In this document: positions 16,404 through 29,656 of the stretch, one piece after another
How positions within the stretch are numbered: the first letter of the stretch is position 1
Layout: each line of letters starts with the position of its first letter
From: Cinnamomum chago
Lineage: Eukaryota; Streptophyta; Magnoliopsida; Laurales; Lauraceae
Reading direction: 5' to 3'
DNA: 64,000 bases
Assembly: GCA_038049695.1 (NCBI GenBank)
Contig: CP142451.1
Span: forward strand, 8,802,001-8,866,000
Made by a program: the position numbers and the translations under genes
Notes under the pieces: model-generated
Told to the model about the DNA's origin: nothing
Seen by the model: only the letters and a program-made list of their open reading frames with translations
The model's database searches: none

Positions 16404-19400
16404 CTATTTGGGAGGGGGGCTTTCATCTTGTGCCTTGACTTTACCTCGCAGCAGCACGTCCCCAAAGTTGCCCCTCATGATTCGCCTGAACCGAGTGTCC
16501 TCTGAAGGAGCTTGAGGAGTGGGGGGCTGCGACGTAACAACCGGTGGTTCTGTGAAATCTGTACTTTCCTTCTTACCCAGCAGTCCACTCTCACCAAAGA
16601 AACTGCTCACTGATGATGCAATGCCAACGCCCATCACCTTACTAATAGTCTCGAATGTTCCACCGGACCGTTCTTTCAATATGACCTCAAGAGCTTCTTT
16701 ATGCGCTGGATCAAGGGAATCATAGTCTTTTAGTAAATTCTGGATTGCTGGCAAGAGGAAATCTCGCACACTAGTTGCTGGAATATCTGCAGCAGCCAAG
16801 AGACAGAGGGTGCCTTAGATAAAAAAAAAAAGTAAATTTGTGTGCATACACACACATGCATAGAATGTAGGTTTTTCCACCTAATAGGGGTGTTATTATG
16901 AACACCTCTAAAACCCCTCATGGACTATTGTACTATTGATTGACGCGAAAACTCCATGACAAAACAGATTTTCAGGAGGCAATCAAGTTCCACGCATCAA
17001 TGTAGCACTTTACACCATACAGAGGAACATGGGCTCCATTTGCAGGGTATCCTCCCTAGAAATGACCCAGCTGTGATTTTTATAAGAAAAAATTATCCAC
17101 TCATCAAGAGAGGTAGTGATATTTTCCCCTTTTTAAGTATCATCCGGTAAAATGTAAAAAACAGATGAGAATCTGCCCAACCAGGTGAGTTTTACTTTCC
17201 TCTCCTATGTCTCCATGTTTCCCCGCATGGTATTTTGATGGGGATTTTCCCTATCTCTCTGTCACCACATCCAACTTGCTTCTTCAAGTAAGATTTCATA
17301 ATTTTAACAAAAAAAGATAGAAAAATAATAGTGTGACAAAATATTAAGAATAATTAATCACAAAGATGATCCAAATAAGAACCAAACCTGTAGCATCCAA
17401 AGCACGAATAGATTCACAGAATGCATTAGCCCTATCACGGCGTCGCATCACATCATTTCCATGTGGAGGCATGTTCGTAAGTTGGAAAATCTTCGACAAA
17501 AGATGTGCATGAAGTCAAAGAAACAGAAGAGCATTACTAGAAGAGACCAAAATGAGTTAAGACAGTCATTTATTAAGAACTATTTTAAAAAAATGCAAGC
17601 TATTCTTCTTAAGCCTTTTAATAAGGTTGAGGATATAATCTCGCAATCTCTCTGTTGTATGAGGAACAGCCACCACTAATGCACGAATAACAGCAATGGT
17701 GGCCTCATGGGATCCATCTTCCAAGAAAGCATCCATTTGAACACGTATCTTCTCAACAATCTGAAATAAGTAAATTTCTATCAGCCATGCCTATGAAAAA
17801 AAGACAATACTAAAAAAATTCCACGTAAACTTAATGTCAACATTGGTCACCGTATCATTTTTGAAATGCTGGGCAACAGCTCCAAATGCATCTATGCTTG
17901 CGTACTTTACATTCAAGTTTTGATCAGAACCAAGAGTGACAAGGGCAGGTAACACATGCGACGAAGCAACTTTCACATCAACGTATGGAACCTAACAACA
18001 GGAAGTACAAGAGTAAGCTACAATATACACATCAATGTTATTGCTCACAATGACATTTTTTGAAAGTAGAAATGCGTACTAGGACTTTCAACATATTGGC
18101 AGCACTGATCTTCATATTAAGATTGGAGCTGACAACCATTTCCCACAAAATATTAAAAATGATCCCATGATGCTCCTCAAATGTGCTGCAGTAAGCGAGA
18201 CTTAAGCTGTTACTTTCTTGCAAGCAAACAAATTTAATTTTGAGGAATATTGCAAGCACCTAACTACCGAAAATTGCTCTTGAACCGAAGAAATATGCCA
18301 GGTTTTTACACAGCACAAGATACCAACCTAAGGAAGCGAACTGCATCAATGATCTCTGCAGTACGATATGTTGACCAAGAACCATCCCTCAATGTATTTT
18401 GAAGCAACAGTTTTCTCAAGTAATCTGCTAGCTTCTCATGCCTACTTGGAACACCCAAAATGCCAGCCAATAGAAGAGGAAGGACACACATAATAGCAAG
18501 TTTCTCAGCCAAAACAGTTTTAGGGCGCAAGCCTGTACTTAAACAAGAGAGGAAATAGTGATATACAGTAGTATTAAGTGATATAGAGTAGCATTAAAAA
18601 CATATTATAGGTTTGAAACGTTTTACCTTTGATTCTTGACTGCATGGCAGCAGGGAAAAGTGACAAATCACCATCATCCCCTACTGCCACCAAGAAAACA
18701 GGCAGCATTATGTGTGTACGGTACTCATCCCCAAATAGTTCAGAAACAGACAGCAGAAACTGCATTAACAACATTCAAATTACAAATTGCTTGTCAGAAA
18801 GAATTGCACTCTTCTCAATACACCAGCAAGAATATTACAAAGAATTCCAAAATTAAAACTTAAATGACTCACATACCTTTGTAGTTTGAGTTCTTAGATT
18901 ATCTTCTTTTTGAGGCAACAGACAAGCAAGTTGAATCAAATCAGGAAAACAGTCCATGTGCATCCATTCAAATGCAGGCCACTCGACATGTCCCCTATTC
19001 AAAGCACCAAAAGGAGGGAAGAAAAGTACAAGCAACAGATAAAAATGCTGTAAGATTTTGCAAGCAATCTTCCCGTGACTATGAAGATCCCCACCCCAAC
19101 AAAGAATAGAAGTGTTTCAGAAAATCGAGCATACCCTGCATACATTTCAAGCATAGAAAGAGACAATATGAATTTCCCTGATTCTGAGGTTGCAACAGAA
19201 GTAAATGGACAGGTTTCAATTGCTTTCCGGTGTACAAAAGGAAACAATTCTGTCAGCATCCGCAGCAGAACCTCAATGTTCCAGCGCTCTCGTTCACCTA
19301 GAACACGAAGATGAGAATCTACAGAATCTTCAACTCCTGAAAGAGGGGGACAGCGCTGACAAATTATGACAGCATCAGCAACAAGGAGTAAGTTCCAAAT

Positions 19401-22400
19401 GAATCCAACAGTAGAAAACATCCCATTAGAAGCACATATACCTGAGCAGAGCCCAAAATATGGGAAAGTACAACTCTTAGGATGTGGTCCAATTTGTTCC
19501 CCCAACTTAAGACAGCAGGGACTAGTTTTTTGAGTGAAGTTTCAACAACCGCTCCTGAGGGGTCGCACACCAATTGGAACATCAACTCCTCGACCTATTC
19601 AACAAAGAGAAAGGTGTATTTGGAAAATCTCTTTTCTTTTCTTTTTCTAATGACATAATTTTATGATTAGGGGAAAAAGCCTCCTGGCTATTCCCAAAAC
19701 CATGCACTTCTGCCTGTTCTAGAGCTTACATTGCAGCCAATTCTGTCAATTCAGTTTTCTGCTCCATGAGTGCCTCTGAGCATATATAGTGAGGCTGAGG
19801 CTGACCTTGAAATATTTGTCCATATTTGGGAAGAGAGGAAGCAGCAACGCCAGGTTATGAGCAGCAGCCTCTCGCACAACTGTTGCCGAATCCTCTATCA
19901 GTTGTTGCACAATGGATAAAATGAGAGAATCACGGATCTCAAGTCGAACAAATTCTGCAAGCTCTCCACAAGATTGAGCTACAAGCAGCCTTCGCTCCTC
20001 AATTTGGTGATTTATCTACAGTTCAATAAATTGTTATTATGCAACTATTCTTGTCCAGGTAAACATTTTTTGGGATAAACAAAGCATCTTCCTCAAGAAT
20101 GACAATAGCATATCACCTGTTCCCAACACTGCGGAAGCAATTCTGATTCAGTTCTCATCTCCCCAATATTCTTAGCAAGACTAACACACGCCTGAAATGA
20201 GAACGGATAGAGTTCAGCAACAGATTTCTTCCATAAATATATCTGAAGTGAATATCATGGCTCAGATAAAAGAGAGGATGATGTCTGTGTTTGGGTGCTG
20301 TAGATGGTAACTTACATCCATTATAACCCGTCTCTGCTTCTCATCTGGCCGTTTGATTAAGTTAAATAATGTGTGTGTTAAAGAATCCCGTATGTTGCTA
20401 TCTGGATGACGCTCGATGGCACACATTATTAGAGGAATAAGCTCCTGCGAGCATTTAGCATCATGTCAATGAAAGATTAATCTTCATTTCATAAAACCAG
20501 AGAGAGGTATAAGAAGTGAACCTCACGATGGTTGATCAGAACATATGGAACAATCTTTGGCAAAGCATCAGAAAGGATCTGAATAGTTTCCAAACCCTGA
20601 AACATAAATCTTTTCTTTAATTGATATAGTAAGGAAATTTAGCTTGTTTTTTAGTACAAGAACTAAATCATACCATCTTTACAGAAACTCCCTTCAGACT
20701 GTCAACCTGCTCCTTATGTTCCAATGTATGTACAGAGTCATGTTTGTTGACACTTGTCACACTTCCATTGTTTTCAATAGCAGCATTGCCATTGAGAGAA
20801 CTTACAACAGGCCGAGGTGCACTGTCTTTGGGCACAATTGTGTCATTCTCCAAGGTCTGACAATTAGCATCTTCATTATCTGGGGTTCCAGATACAAAGT
20901 CTTTGGAGTGAGATGCCACGCCTTTATCTTCATGTATCTCAACAACTTCTTCGATCTGTGTAACCTCATTCTCACGACTGATAGGCTCTACACTACTCGT
21001 GATGGTGGATGTATTAAGTTTTAGACGTTCTATTTCCATTTGCAAAGATTTTATTTCTTCCTTGTAGCTGTCAATGTATGATGCTTGCAACTTTTCAGTA
21101 TCTGCACCAGCCCATGCTCGACTTGCTTGAGATCCTTCAATATGCATTTTCAGTGAAGTGATTTCTGCCCTACAGTCATTAAGGTCTTTTCTCTGAAGTT
21201 CCAGTGATTGCTTTAAATCTTGCACCTACAAGATATAATGCATTCTGCTTCACAAATATCATCAGAATATGACTTGTTAAATGTAACAATTCAATAAACA
21301 AGAAGTACCAGAATCTCCCTGTCTTTGAGGTCCTTCTGGACAGCTTCTAAGGACTTCATTAATGCAATTATTTGACCATCAGCCAACTCCGTGCTTTTAA
21401 GCAATGACTCTTTTTCATGATTAAGCATTTCATTTGCTTTCAGTAATGACTCTCTTTCTCGAAGAAGGGCAATCTTCTCCTGGAGTATGACAACCATGAT
21501 AAAAGGATGCATCATTTGAAGTTAGCTAAAACCTTCATTACGGAAATCATGGGAAAAAAAAGATGCATCATGCAAAACAAATTCAATTCAGTCTAGAGTA
21601 ACATATTAAAACTTCAAACCTGCATTATGGAAATTAGCTCCTAAAAGATGAATCACACTCATGCATTAAGAGGGGTGCTAGAAAACCCAGCTTTGCTTTT
21701 TAAAGTATGCTTAAGTTTGTGTGGGAACCACCTGGATGCATGTCAATCATAAGGATAGGAGGATGAGAGGGTTGGCCAAATATCACTTTGATTAGATCAT
21801 CCTGACCCACCTTACTTTAGGGCCTCAGAATTTAAGAGACTTATAATGCATTTTCATCGAGATTCAATTCAAAGGTGGATGATGGTTGGATCGACATCGA
21901 ATTGAGGCAAGTGGCAATTCAACAGAGATAGACGTGTGTTTGTGTGGGGACTTCGATTGATCATAGGCGAGTCCCGTTGTAAGAAGTAGAAACAGGGTTT
22001 AAAAGCAAACCCCTTTTTTTTAATTTTATCCATGAATAAAATTAGCACTAGTCATCAATGGAAGAAACTTTGATTTCTAAAGGAGCTTCCTACAATGTAC
22101 TTTTCAGTTTTCCCCTCTTAAGAAATCTACATCATTGCAAGAAACCAACTCCAGGAAAGGTTCAAGGACTACCTCAGCAGCCTCAGCCGTGGATGAAAGG
22201 TACTCATAATAATAGTGACGCAAAGCATCTGGTACACAAGCAGGTGTGTTCTGCCAAACATCAAGGTCTTGGTCTGTAACCTGCATGACAGGAAGCTTCC
22301 TTAATATTAAATCACTATCAATAAATTGATAAATGTAGGTACAAAATACATTCAATAGTCACAATGAAAATATATTTTAACATTCCAATAACCAAAATTG

Positions 22401-25247
22401 CTTCATTATGTGGTTCAAAGGAGTTCATAGTGTCCTTGTACTTGATCATGATTTACACTTAATAACACGTATAGTGTGTGCGATATGATATGCATGTTAT
22501 GTGTGTAAAGGTGGTTCCAGAGGTTGACCTTGCTATAGGGTTTCATATGGTAGAGTCAGATTTGCACATGCAAGGCCCAAATTTTAAAAAATCAAAATGT
22601 TCACCTGACGCGCTTGTGCATTTTGAACCTTGGGGGGTCAAATCCGCTTTCATGTTAGCAACACCATCGGATTGAAAATGAAATGTGATCAAACCATAAT
22701 AAACAAATTGATTAACAAATCACAATATTCTCCAAAAATGATGCCTCCTTCCATTGATCTGGACTGTTGGTGTGATGCACAATATGCTCCTCCATTGATG
22801 ATTAAAGTTCATAATTGTCAATTTTATTTCAGACCTTGTTTCGGTTTATTTCTAGACTGAAATGTTTCAGACGACTCAGCATTATGGTATTTCATTTTGG
22901 AAAGGGCTGGGTATGTAGTGGTATATACATCCCACATCAGAAACATGCTAGTCCTGATCTTGGGTATATGTGTGTGACCTGACCTTAACTCCACATGAGG
23001 CCTTTTAAAACTATACGGCAAGATTGGGTTGAAATTCCATGAGCCAAAGGGGTCAATATCATGAAGATACTAGGCCCAGGGTCGTTACAGTAAATAAAAA
23101 AGAAGTGAAATTAACATATATGTTATATATTTTTAATTCATTCTACTAAATCAGCAATATAATATGTTGCTCCTACATGTCAAATAAATGATTGTCAGAC
23201 ATGACTGTGACTGTGGAATTATGACATCCATTCTCAACTCGTCTCTAATAATCAATATTAGACTAAACTAACATAAATTAGAACAAATTCACTTAATTGT
23301 TACATCACAGTGGGGCGTATTAGTACCTCAATCAAAATTAAAAGCCTTTTTTCACTATTTTCCTTGTTCAGCTGGAACCTGGCCATTTTGACCTCTTCAA
23401 CAAGGCCGAAATAGTCAGAAATCCTGACCAAAATTTTGTATAACATTGGTTGGTTCAATCACCTGAACTGAATAGTTTTGGCTGTTTGGCTGAAACGAAC
23501 CGAAGTTGACTATTGAACTCAAGTTTCACTTCAATAAGAGAAAATATCACCAAGGATTGCTCAAAAATGATTTGACAACAATTTTTAAATAGGCGTATTC
23601 AACAATCATTATTTCTTTTAATAAAGAATATTTTGGGCTTCTAACTTGTGGACAGCAATTTGAATGAATGGTTTGGATATCAGGTAGTTCAATTGAATAT
23701 AAAATTCAATTTATCAAAAGATTGTTATGCATATGGGACTAAATCACATCTTTAACGATCTGTTTAATCTGTCAGTGATGATTACACTGAAAACTGGACC
23801 CATGTGGGTAAATATGGATGGGGGGGCAACTTTTGAATGGCTTGGAACTTCATGGGTCGGGGCCATACTTACGAATTTGACTCAACCTTATGGTAAGGTA
23901 AAGCATAACTCAGGTTTCTGTGTGTGTGAATGTGGCGACATGATGTAATTACATATCGCTGCAAGTTACACTTGAGGCCTTTAGGTAAAGTGGTAAGCTA
24001 CTAGCCTTTGGCCATGCAGAGGCAAGAGAATTAAGCATGCTAAGAAAAGATAAGGTCTACGTCCTTAGTGTCTTTTAGACCTTTTAAGACTAGACAGGAA
24101 GACGTAAATAAAGCTGGAGAGAGAGAGAGAGAGGTCTACATGACGCCCGGGTGTTTTCAAAAGTTAAAACGGCACTATTTGTAACGAATAAGAGGAGTCC
24201 ACGTAATCATATCACTTACGAAGCTTAAATGCCCATTCATAACTTCCATTACCTCTTCCTTGAAACTAGCTACAACTCTGCATTCAAAATCCCAACTTTC
24301 TCTTGAAAAAGCAACTAATCCTTTCCTAGTTTTTCTCTCTTTTTTAACAAATCATTAAAGATTCACTTCCCTATTTTCCTCCTTGTCAATCAAGCCTCTT
24401 ATTTGTGATTGAATTTGGGAGTCTCTTATTTGTGATTATTTTTAGGCTTACATTCATATAGACTATTCGCCAGAGATCATTGGTGGGGTCTGCTTATGAA
24501 AAATCCATACTGATCAAAATAAATGGCCCCCTCATTTTTTTTAGTCATCAATTGATTTTAATCAAATATGAATTGGGCCCACCATCAGATTGAACAGTAT
24601 TGATGGGACACATATCTAACTTTTGTGCAAATTTGTCTTTAAGGGTCCGTTTGGGAAGGGAGGAGGGGAGGGAAAATTTGAGGGGGAAGTAAAATGAAGG
24701 GGAGGGGAGGAAAAATTAATTTTCCCTCCTCTTGTTTGGGAAGTAAAAAAGTAAGGGGAAGGAAAGTGAAAAAGTATAATTTTGTTTTTAGTGAGGTACA
24801 GAAAAAAAACTATTTTACCCTTGCTCTTAAAAAAATTCAAATAAAGTAAAAGGGCATTTTAGTCATTTCTTCCCTCTCTCCTCACTTTCCCCTCATTTTC
24901 CCTCTTGTTTTGGGGGGAAAATTTTTGAGGCAAAAAGGTGTTTTTTTCCTTCCATTTTCCTCCCCCCCATTTTCCCTCCCCCCTTCCCAAACACCCCCCA
25001 AAAGCACTTTCCCTCCACTTTCCCCCCTTTTTTTCCTCCCCCCCATTTTCCCCCCCTTCCCAAACAGACCCTAAGTAATTATTTTCTACTAAATGCACCA
25101 TGGAAAGTGGGAGAGGGGCACAATTTCTCTTCTCCCATCTTATCTCCCTTCCACTTTAAAAGAATCCCTAAAATATTAGTGTACATGTTGAATGGCTCTT
25201 TCTTTCTTGCATTTATTACAAACCAGATGGATGCGGCATTTTGTAGA

Positions 25248-25305
<58 letters not shown>

Positions 25306-26949
25306 ATATATAAATATATATATCAACAAAGAGAAAAACTACAACACAGAAAAGACAGCCAAACTACAAAGAAAGAACAAAAAATGGGGAGGATCCATCC
25401 ACCCATAGCTTAGCCAGCAAGTCGGCAAAGCCATTCGCCAGTCCCTTCACAATTGAAGCTAATTCAACACAATTATTTCAATGCCTGGAGCAAAGGATTG
25501 TGCTAACTCTTATGTGAAGAAGACATTACAAAAGAGAGTATTCTTGGATCTCACGTATGATGAAAAGGCCAATAGTTCTGTGATTAGGGTAATCTAGTTG
25601 GTCAGATTTTCACAATGACTTATGAAAGGTGGCTGGATTTGTTGGATAGTCCAGATAGGTAACTTCATGCCCATGCGAATAGAAAACAATTAGAGGTCAT
25701 TTGCCTTTTACGCAAGTGATAGGAAAATGGGTTTTACATATGCAAATGTTACATAGTGCTACACATGTGAAACACATTACCATGTTTGTCAAAATCATCA
25801 TTTTCACAAGTAAATGAGCATATACGGTGGTTTTAGATTTATTTGGAACTTTTTCACAAATTTATCAAAATTCATTTAGATTTAAGATATGAAACTTTCC
25901 ATCTTGATGTGTTCCATTAATAGAAGAATATTAGACATTTCAAATAATGAATTGAGGCCCACATATGTCCAGAAAATTAGATCTACAAGTTGGGACATTT
26001 TCACAAATTACTCAAAATCTATGAAGATTTAAAGATAATCAGATTCAAGATCCTGGGGATTCACAAATATGCGGTCCACAGGAATGAAAAAGTAAAGGTC
26101 TTTGATGGCCCCACAAGTAAAACTACCATGTGGAGACTGTACTAGCACCTTTTGCGAAGAGAGGTGTGAATCGCTTTACCACTTATCCAGGTAAGTAAAT
26201 TTTGGTGTGTAAATGGACTCATTGATTGAAAAAAAAAAAGAAAGGTAAGTGAAAAAAATACTGTGTGGAGACTGTACTAGCGCATTTTTGCAAAGAGGTG
26301 TGAATCGCTTTTCCAGGTAAGTAAATTTTGGTGTGTAAATGGCCTCATTTACGCACAATTTTCACAACTCATTTATGCATCACGTGTAAATGAGTGCAAC
26401 GCAATGATGCGCATCCATTACACATAGGAATCACTTACATGTGTAAATGACTGCAAACAAACGAAAGGAATTTGCATAGTCTGATGCGCAGTACTTTTCT
26501 AGTAGAATTTGCCTTTATAAAAATGCAACGGTTACCTTGGTGATATAGGTTATATTACTCACTGTTTCTTTGCTCTTAAGGGTGATATACTGACAATACT
26601 TAGTCATTTTTTAGCTCTTTAAGGCTTGTGTCATACTCTTCATGGCCACGTCCCACGTGATATAACCAAATCCAGCATCTAGTGCAGGCATGAATAATGG
26701 AACACTTTTTTCTCATTTTTGGGGGTCACTGGTATGCATAACTGAACACTCACAGATTCCACTTACCTCCTCATAAAATGTCATAGCAGTAAGCCGATAT
26801 CCCGCAAAAAGCAAATATTCCTTTATAGCACAGTTTAGATCCCTACGCTCTGAATCTTTTAAAGGGCCCAAATCAGAAAATAAACCTTCCCTCTTTCTTT
26901 GTTGACGGTTGGGACCTTCACTAATGGAAACAGCTTCTTGAGAGCCTGT

Positions 26950-26988
<39 letters not shown>

Positions 26989-29641
26989 CAATTTAAAAAA
27001 CAATAGTTCTGAAGCCCTTCTGGAAGTAAACATTGTCCTGGAAACATCAAAGCATTATGGAAGTACATTGTTCGGCTAATTTTCCTTTTTCAATGGTTAA
27101 ACTTGCTACAATACCTCCATAAAAATAAATAATATGGTTTTGACTGTAACTTGGACACGGTATCAAAGTATCTGAAACAAAACAATATGAACACCTTAAT
27201 ATGAATATCTAGCTTGAATCCTTTAGATGTAGGCCATGACTCGTCGGTGTCTAGGTTAACCAGAAGCCCCCATTGATCGACCAAGGGGCATAATCATTGA
27301 TATTAAAAGTTGCTGCAAAATTTTAAAATTCAAAACAATGGTTACAATAACAAGAAATGGATAAAGAGAAGGGAAAATTGATACTCCTTAATCTGCTACA
27401 TCAAATTGTGAAAAGGAAGGTATTTGAAACCGGTCCTTCCTTCAGAGTACCATAATAGGTTTAGAAGGCATTATCAAATTCTACACCTCAGAATAGCAGG
27501 TTATATCTTATCTGTGTGACTTGCAAATCTCTTAAAAACACTGTTACGATTGCAATTGTCCAAATTAAGATCAGATTAAACTTTAAATCTAATTAGGACT
27601 ATGACCCGAAAGTGTGCATTAAATAGACATGCGGTCCCTGTTGTAGAGGACACAAAAAATCAGTGTAGATATGGCCACCAACCAAGATCATTTTTGTAAT
27701 TAGTTTAGGACTGTTGACATAAGCCTTGGCATATTGGACAGAGATCAGTGTCGCAACAGGGTTGTGGTCTGTGGGCTTGAGTGATGTCACCATTCAAAAA
27801 AAAAAAAAAAAAAAGAATTTGATTAGGACTGTAACCCTGCAAAGTGTACATAAGAGCATAGAGTCTTCAAACATACAGAATTTAACATGGTAGACAAAGT
27901 AAGCATCTTGATTTATGTGGGCAAGCAACAACTAGACATTCCAATATTAGAGAAACATACTGATATAGATTAGACCATAATTTCATATGCATCCATATAA
28001 AGGCAGAGCATGAACAGATGAAACATATGCTATTAAAGTATAGTCTACGCATGTAATGAAGTTGCCAATTCTATCCTCTCCTTTTCTTCAATAGAGTTCA
28101 CTAATTACCATGACCGTCTTCTTTTCTTTTTTTAATGGCAATTACCATGTATAACATGAAAGACTTTCATAACTACAGGAAATTATTTCATATGATTAGA
28201 TAAAACTAAAAATAAGATACATGTTTGTATGTGATTTCTGATAATAAAAAAAAGGCAAGTACCTACCACTTGATTCTTCAGGAGGGCATTCAACTCGTTT
28301 TTGTAGCTCTGCCTTCAGCCTCAACGTGTCCTCTTGGGCTAAGCGGAGCTCATATTGGCTGATTGCCAACTTTTCTTCCACTGTTTCTTTCTCTTCTACT
28401 AAACTCTGAGGATCAGCCACTGATACACAAAATTATATAAGTCACAAAAATGGAAATATTTCAAGTATATGCCAGCATATTCTGGAAACAAAAAAAAAAA
28501 ATCTAAAGGCATAGAAGTGTCAAGGTAGCTATAATTTATCTCTTCACAAGAAAGAAAAGTAAAGAACAGAACATGAGATAAACCACATTTTATTCAAATT
28601 TTCCGTGATTACACCAAATAAAACTGTGAAAGTCCTTGTTTACTTGGTGGAGTGCTCAACCAAGTTCCAAATATACCAACACACGGTCGCATCAAATCCA
28701 TTTATCACACTATTGCAAAGAGTTTTGGCCAATTGATAGCATTGAAGATCATAAACATACAATATCTCTTCTATGGCAGCACCCAGTGGTGATTGGACTA
28801 CATTCTGCATTTTCACAGAAATTTTCATCGTTTATATCCGATTTGCATTACTTAGTTAAGCAGTATCAGCAGGAAGTCCATCTACTAAGAGTGTTGGATA
28901 TGATTAGAAAAGGTGTCATGGCTATTAAAATGCAATCGATTTAAAGAAATGCAAAGGGAACTTCAACCAGTTCCAATTACTTCTCTCTTTCAAAGATTAG
29001 AAGGCCACTGTTCCTGAAATTACCAGTCTCATTGATTCACTTTCTAAACCATGTCAAAGACTTTGTTTTTGCATCAAACCAATATGGAACAGATACAATG
29101 AAACTTCAAAATGGAGGCAGCGACCAAGAAGTTGCAGGAACTATGAACCTCGATGTTATCAGCTTACAAATGCACCACACGGACACCGCGATGGAGTGCG
29201 ATCTGTCGGCGGCCGCCGACACAGATAGTTCCCAACAATGGAATCCAATAGGAATCCGTTCTTCTTACATTCTAAATTTCCCGACACTAGTTATGCAATT
29301 TCTATAGATCACGCGATCCAATACATATACAACTCTGCAAATTCAATACTTAACAGAGCTAAGATAATAAAAAAAATCAGAAACTACGCACAATCAAATC
29401 AGAAATCGCACAAACAGATGAGAATTGAGTGATTTGATTTACATCGAAGGTTGTTGAAGCGGGCGATCTGATCGGGCGGGAATTGGGCGGGATCGGAGAA
29501 GAACTCCTTGAGGCGAATGGCGTGGACGTCGCGTCCATCTTCGAGGAGCTCGTGGAGGAGTTCGAAGGCCGTGAGCAAGTAGTTCTCCTGGAGAAGGAAA
29601 TTCACGACGCAGTTGCAGAGAGACGATTTCTCCACATCCAT
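16404..29641 (-). CDS. LisH and HEAT-repeat protein, plant RELCH/KIAA1468 homologue (1183 aa, 20 exons)
   Basis: Exons in coding order: 29641-29443, 28419-28267, 26945-26767, 22280-22173, 21479-21309, 21225-20674, 20596-20522, 20444-20316, 20191-20117, 20015-19806, 19594-19442, 19355-19135, 18994-18877, 18759-18627, 18532-18328, 18185-18080, 17991-17851, 17760-17637, 17504-17388, 16786-16404. The phases close to 1183 codons plus stop, near the ~1180 aa I recall for At5g16210. Domains: LisH (1-35, SSLCNCVVNFLLQENYLLTA), coiled coil (~70-115), second LisH-like segment (153-180), longer coiled coil (~214-330), then HEAT repeats to about 1110. The start at 29641 (MDVEKSS) is preferred over an in-frame ATG five codons upstream because relatives begin MDVE. 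Human RELCH links recycling endosomes to the trans-Golgi with RAB11 and OSBP; the plant role is inferred only. Intron 18 is AT-AC. Confidence 0.95.
17505..17636 (-). other. AT-AC, U12-type intron (132 nt) in the RELCH-like gene
   Basis: Exon 18 must join exon 19 to give the conserved Asp-Tyr-Leu-Leu-Ser-Lys-Ile. Only removal of 17636-17505 (minus strand) does this in frame. The intron begins ATATCCTC, close to the U12 AT-AC donor consensus ATATCCTT, and ends in CAC. A branch-site match TTTCTTTGACT places the branch adenosine (17515) 10 nt before the end, as U12 introns require. No GT-AG pair gives the same join. Confidence 0.85.
24643..25071. mobile_element. Tourist-like MITE, copy 2, in an intron of the RELCH-like gene
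   Basis: It starts GGGTCCGTTTGGGAAGGG and ends CCCTTCCCAAACAGACCC, nearly perfect inverted termini, with TAA on both sides (24640-24642 and 25072-25074). It is 429 bp, with a G-rich left arm and C-rich right arm. It sits in the 4.5-kb intron between exons 3 and 4. Its clean termini suggest it is younger than the copies at 6322 and 59477. Confidence 0.9.
25251..25303. repeat. (CT)n microsatellite, about 53 nt
   Basis: An uninterrupted CT dinucleotide run followed by an AT-rich TATATAAATATATATAT stretch. It lies in the intron between exons 3 and 4 of the RELCH-like gene and is long enough to be length-variable. Confidence 0.95.
26129..26349. repeat. Local direct duplication, about 90 bp, two copies
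   Basis: 26129-26222 and 26262-26349 both run from TGTGGAGACTGTACTAGC through GGTGTGAATCGCTTT to GGTAAGTAAATTTTGGTGTG, with small indels. They lie in the intron between exons 3 and 4 of the RELCH-like gene, in DNA rich in GTGTAAATG motifs. Confidence 0.85.
26951..26986. repeat. (GA)18 microsatellite that forms the polypyrimidine tract before exon 3 of the RELCH-like gene
   Basis: On the minus strand this is (CT)18 followed by CGACAG and exon 3 (from 26945). The repeat occupies exactly the position of the polypyrimidine tract of that acceptor. Confidence 0.9.
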
Positions 29642-29656
29642 CGATCGATCCACCAT

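Follow-up and report, generated by a model that had tools for sequence, protein, structure and literature searches.

A probable U12-dependent AT-AC intron in a RELCH-like gene of Cinnamomum chago

The closest described counterparts of the intron reported here are the AT-AC introns of the minor, U12-dependent class. In plants, AT-AC termini make up 0.06% of splice sites overall (PMC6310983), but their share of U12 introns is 26% for Arabidopsis, 23% for soybean, 22% for rice, and 13% for maize (Table 2 of PMC7367187); they are therefore rare overall yet not exotic within their class. Another count, quoted in PMC5932401, puts the share at 4.8%. A preliminary description of the locus treated here had called such introns a small minority of the U12 class, a statement that agrees with the lower count and is tempered by the 13 to 26% given for four plants. 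One plant example, the AT-AC U12 intron after exon 4 of CBP20, is reported by PMC5932401 from ten of the ten plants that it examined. Two protein factors bear on introns of this kind: among the minor introns of human cells, CENATAC depletion affected 92% of the A-type and 24% of the G-type (PMC8280824), and AT-AC introns are affected in Arabidopsis mutants of DROL1, the plant TXNL4B (PMC11039992, citing Suzuki 2022). The gene to be described has its own putative counterpart in human RELCH, which is composed of a LisH motif, a coiled coil, and HEAT repeats (PMC5940305).

This work presents a candidate AT-AC intron from a 64-kb window (the whole stretch of C. chago DNA that was analyzed, 64,000 nucleotides of contig CP142451.1). 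On the evidence set out below, the interval 17636-17505 is very probably a U12-dependent AT-AC intron in a single-copy RELCH-like gene, single copy here meaning that no second copy was found. The features involved are collected in Table 1.

Table 1. Coordinates of the RELCH-like gene and of the signals of its intron 18, as positions in the window
Feature	Position	Strand	Details
RELCH-like gene, coding span	16404..29656	minus	20 exons; CDS 3567 nt including stop; 1188 aa
Exon 18	17637..17760	minus	124 nt; ends ...ERLRD plus T
Intron 18	17505..17636	minus	AT-AC, 132 nt, phase 1
U12-type 5' splice site ATATCCTC	17629..17636	minus	7/8 to RTATCCTT; C at +8, A at +9
U12-type branch motif TTCTTTGAC	17514..17522	minus	8/9 to TTCCTTRAY; presumed branch A 17515
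3' splice site AC	17505..17506	minus	10 nt after presumed branch A
Exon 19	17388..17504	minus	117 nt; starts AT CTT TTG TCG AAG

The gene model was built by hand on the minus strand, with exons running from 29656 down to 16404. All 20 exons are open, and the 1188-residue product is uninterrupted. GT-AG termini were found in 18 of the 19 introns, the exception being intron 18, which thus sits among U2 introns as first described. Exons 18 and 19 were each matched in the plant's own genome, and a search of that genome for a second copy or paralogue (30 candidates scored) found none, with 20 of 20 matched stretches lying at the locus itself. HEAT repeats in the C-terminal half of the product were detected by PF02985 in Pfam (1.6e-10) and by the PP2A scaffold chains in the PDB (1.9e-11); matches in these two databases were to generic HEAT relatives only, apart from weaker matches. 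The LisH motif gave only a subthreshold match to ARMC9_LisH at residues 158-183. The overall layout is a LisH-like start, a coiled-coil-like middle, and HEAT repeats, the LisH and coiled-coil parts having been judged by eye. We take the gene to be RELCH-like from this architecture, and AT5G16210 is presumably its Arabidopsis identifier. Human RELCH (KIAA1468) shares the HEAT repeats and a similar length, the human fragments in PMC5940305 extending to residue 1216. A RELCH-like pattern search of prokaryotic and viral contig collections returned 21 and 6 matches, respectively, none of which was confirmed as an orthologue. Elsewhere in the model, intron 17 (17850-17761 of the window, minus strand) has a weak-looking U2 donor, GTGACC, that was chosen by frame; it scores 3.1 bits, and three of the 18 leave-one-out donors score lower. 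Exon 17 may end elsewhere.

Intron 18 starts with ATATCCTCAACC and ends with TTTCTTTGACTTCATGCAC, its last three bases being CAC. The 3' end of exon 18 reads ...GCGAGATT and the 5' end of exon 19 reads ATCTTTTGTCG, so the predicted spliced junction joins ...GCGAGATT to ATCTTTTGTC (17637 to 17504). Translation in phase 1 gives ...TTERLRD-Y-LLSKIFQLT. The coordinates, length, AT donor, and CAC end proposed in the preliminary description are confirmed on the minus strand, as is its right-phase join through Asp-Tyr-Leu-Leu-Ser-Lys-Ile. Its branch site also lies where it was placed, 10 nt before the end, but the 9/10 match claimed for it, to a consensus left unstated, becomes 8/9 against TTCCTTRAY.

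Several properties of intron 18 can be set beside those of the minor class. Its branch motif lies 10 nt from the last base, which is near the optimal branch-to-acceptor distance of 11-13 nt given for minor introns (PMC3584512) and appears to fit the class. Minor introns avoid phase 0 (PMC10639083), with which the predicted phase 1 is consistent. Under the strict form of the RTATCCTT rule, a change is tolerated only at +5 or +6 (PMC2846911), and the intron 18 donor falls outside it owing to the C at +8. Its place about 86% of the way along the CDS speaks against the class, as U12 introns show a 5' bias in location (PMC2426677). Its AT content is 69.7%. None of the gene's other 18 introns equaled it in donor and branch scores together. 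Intron 6 came nearest, with a donor of 6/8, a branch motif of 8/9 that lies 32 nt from the end, and GT-AG termini. The predicted RNA structure of intron 18 was not unusual (z 0.79), and no Rfam family reached its gathering score in the 64-kb window.

Short motifs of this kind are expected by chance, and we therefore did not use them by themselves as proof. To count as a motif pair, an AT donor (one mismatch to ATATCCTT allowed) had to be followed at a distance of 60-1000 nt by an AC acceptor whose branch motif scored 8/9 or better. Counting the window on both strands gave 24 such pairs (5 plus, 19 minus), whereas 200 dinucleotide-shuffled versions averaged 24.6, and the motifs alone are thus at chance level. 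The exon context gave a different result. Replacing the 132 nt between exons 18 and 19 with random introns from a first-order Markov model trained on the gene's introns yielded a comparable AT-AC solution in 2 of 300,000 cases, or in 3 if U12-like GT-AG solutions were allowed. A solution counted as comparable if it was frame keeping and stop free, with a donor of 7/8 or better, a branch motif of 8/9 or better, and ends at most 9 nt from the boundaries. It is the exon context, not the motifs, that carries the case for an AT-AC intron, and this context exceeds chance.

Three other accounts of the interval were weighed. In the first of these, cryptic GT-AG sites join exons 18 and 19, and the resemblance to an AT-AC intron is accidental. 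The region does offer frame-keeping, stop-free pairs for introns of 60 nt or longer: 9 GT-AG, 9 GC-AG, 61 AT-AC, 21 AT-AG, and 41 AT-AA. The AT-AC pair 17636/17505 loses no coding sequence, although losses were counted against the proposed exon ends and the comparison is in that respect partly circular. The least damaging GT-AG pair, 17580/17491, removes 14 nt of exon 19 while bringing in 56 nt. Its site sum of 2.0 is lower than that of every GT-AG intron in the gene; the site matrices were trained on these 18 introns only (leave-one-out sums, 5.7-17.1). The 56 nt that the pair would retain are 75% AT, a value reached by 0 of 3,511 CDS windows of the same size. The other eight GT-AG pairs add nothing and lose 45 to 225 nt (15 or more codons), again as counted against the proposed ends. 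They comprise 17667/17491 (45 nt lost; sum, 1.4), 17673/17491 (51 nt lost; sum, 5.8, barely within the range of the gene's GT-AG introns), 17684/17388 and 17744/17388, and four with sums between -2.3 and 2.7. The pairs 17684/17388 and 17744/17388 delete exon 19 entirely, and they reach sums of 7.1 and 8.5 because a strong acceptor follows that exon. Alignment to HEAT relatives also separates the products. Importin beta-3 in the PDB aligns with the AT-AC product at 22.2 bits over query residues 79-209, crossing the junction, and with the 17580/17491 product at 17.7 bits over residues 79-193, stopping short of it; for the PP2A scaffold, the scores are 47 and 45.2 bits. The differences are small but one-directional and would favor the AT-AC junction. 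We consider splicing through cryptic GT-AG sites very unlikely.

About equally improbable is the view that the AT-AC boundary is real but the intron is removed by the U2 spliceosome, in the manner of class I AT-AC introns. The 3' end of intron 18 is fairly pyrimidine rich (17 of 22 positions, a stretch that includes part of the branch motif), whereas U12-type introns have no distinct polypyrimidine tract. U2-type AT-AC introns have a U1-complementary donor form, ATAAGT, whereas ATATCCTC agrees with the U12 form of the donor, and a U12-type branch motif is present at about U12 spacing. Plants do have U2-type AT-AC introns; across the four species of PMC7367187 (Table 2), they are 0 to 0.05% of the U2 class. 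The third account, in which the interval is not removed at all and the gene has decayed or is misassembled here, seems to us still less credible: the 20 exons have consistent splice sites and stay open through all 3567 nt, the genome search pointed to this locus throughout, and read-through runs into a TGA after 23 codons, which encode Tyr and 22 foreign residues. Of the readings tested, only a U12-type AT-AC intron keeps the whole frame. The preliminary description had favored this reading, which is further supported by the minor-spliceosome genes and the CBP20 AT-AC intron of the same genome.

The machinery was searched for in the full assembly (1.06 Gb, 14 contigs). A U12 gene (92.5 bits) and a U11 gene (71.5 bits) scored over their Rfam cutoffs, as did five U6atac matches, the best at 102.9 bits. 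Plant snRNA genes carry an upstream element with the consensus RTCCCACATCG, which was matched at 10, 11, and 11 of 11 positions at U12, U11, and the best U6atac, respectively. The four weaker U6atac copies (C12:37736946, C6:26111695, C7:53391357, and C4:21030370) score 44.7-62.2 bits, match the upstream element at 6-8 of 11 positions, and are possible pseudogenes. U4atac was not found among the candidates scored (49 of 49,739), in a search whose control was silent. For the protein factors, a CENATAC-family gene (PF14968) was detected as two pieces (113 and 90 bits) at C1:115556733-115561125, and an exon of a DIM1-family gene on C2 matches human TXNL4B at 2.2e-13 versus U5-15K/DIM1 at 4.6e-4. 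Both are putative orthologues, of CENATAC and of TXNL4B/DROL1, assigned by best match only.

Additional matches to both families were seen. N-terminal CENATAC-model matches (positions 1-73 and 81-123) occur at about ten dispersed places with 28-40 bits, several within open frames of about 200 codons; these places include C11:16651408, C3:81199013, C9:23252121, C5:35076189, C1:57698817, C1:34438003, C11:38251409, C4:48147939, and C12:50955144, and they may be fragments of captured genes or belong to a related family. Besides the TXNL4B-like gene on C2, there is a DIM1 copy on C9. Two partial DIM1-family stretches, C8:10760317-10760421 and C8:10792458-10792562, both cover model positions 58-92 about 32 kb apart and may reflect a local duplication.

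CBP20 provided a control from the same genome. Its exon 4 ends ...GACTACGATCCCG and is followed directly by ATATCCTTTT, a fully consensus donor (8/8), at the position known from the ten plants of PMC5932401. Intron 4 is 2370 nt long and ends ...CACCTTAACCGCTATATAC; exon 5 then reads GRGGYGKLVQKEIE, with DYDPGRGGYGKL kept. The CBP20 branch motif, CACCTTAAC, lies 11 nt before the AC end and scores 7/9 by the rule that gives the RELCH-like intron 8/9. Both are phase 1 introns of plant genes with AT-AC termini, and both have a donor and a branch motif of the U12 type; they differ in that the CBP20 intron is long with a consensus donor, whereas the RELCH-like intron is short with +8C and +9A. Thus, an accepted AT-AC intron of this genome is no better at the branch site than the RELCH-like intron and is better at the donor.

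The observed sequence and frame, the lack of any GT-AG alternative without loss, the pairings open to the snRNAs, and the machinery genes lead us to infer that intron 18 is removed by the minor spliceosome. In the predicted course of events, U11 would pair with donor positions +3 to +7 and U12 with the branch motif, and U6atac would then replace U11 at +4 to +7. The A at 17515 would attack the 5' splice site, and the exons would join as GATT followed by ATCTTTTG, restoring the predicted heptapeptide. As an AT-AC intron, intron 18 should need the plant counterparts of CENATAC and TXNL4B (DROL1). It resembles the CENATAC-dependent A-type (AT-AN) introns of humans and the DROL1-dependent AT-AC introns of Arabidopsis in its AT-AC termini and U12-type signals, and both factor families are present in the genome; dependence was shown for the human and Arabidopsis introns (PMC8280824 and PMC11039992) and would be predicted for intron 18.

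How efficiently such an intron would be spliced can be gauged from the strength of its sites. With the snRNAs of the same genome, the longest pairing run of the intron 18 donor is 5 with U11 and 4 with U6atac, compared to 7 and 6 for a consensus donor; two pairs are lost in each case because of the C at +8 and the A at +9. Pairing of U12 with the branch motif would involve two wobbles, against none for the consensus. The branch-site purine is G, and A at this position favors plant U12 splicing according to PMC5932401 (citing Lewandowska 2004). GT-AG sites won over AT-AC sites in a human minor-intron reporter (PMC8280824). The AT richness of the intron, on the other hand, would be expected to favor its splicing. 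In all, the splice site looks weak, and from its strength we infer that removal is probably inefficient.

If intron 18 were retained, the product would have 1045 residues instead of 1188 and would lose the C-terminal 165. The retention stop lies upstream of two later exon junctions, the last being 19/20, when only intron 18 is left in. RNA decay is expected when a stop precedes later exon junctions, and the retained RNA is therefore probably marked for decay. The OSBP-binding part of human RELCH comprises residues 904-1142 (PMC5940305), and part of the region that corresponds to it by position would be lost from the truncated product. The fewer snRNA pairs, the branch-site G, and the AT-AC termini could be imagined as weak on purpose, creating a rate-limiting, CENATAC/DROL1-dependent step that sets the level of full-length RELCH, but we regard this as doubtful. 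Were it true, retained transcripts would either lack the C-terminal HEAT region or be degraded.

Intron 18 looks genuine but is an ordinary example of a known intron type, in an ordinary membrane-traffic gene, and it leaves the knowledge of minor splicing unchanged. No published account of an AT-AC intron in a RELCH-like gene was found in the literature covered, the main texts of mostly nonsubscription papers, searched in part under the presumed Arabidopsis identifier. For annotation, gene prediction limited to GT-AG introns would probably misannotate this gene, and a gene for which no second copy was found would depend on the minor spliceosome. The locus also adds one case, with an unusual +8C/+9A donor, for testing AT-AC-specific factors in plants.

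A genome-wide survey by AT-AC pattern returned 122 matches (44 forward and 78 reverse, several of them overlapping) versus 34 and 33 in a reversed control, and it gave no usable donor statistics. Among the matches listed (C1-C9), most belong to a dispersed repeat that imitates the pattern. This repeat, ATATCCTAGGGATGTAGGAT...TTTTTCCTTGACTGTGGGAC (e.g., C1:122183529-122183620 and C6:22303170-22303242), mimics a U12 donor, a branch motif, and an AC end at intron-like spacing and would mislead pattern-based surveys of AT-AC introns.
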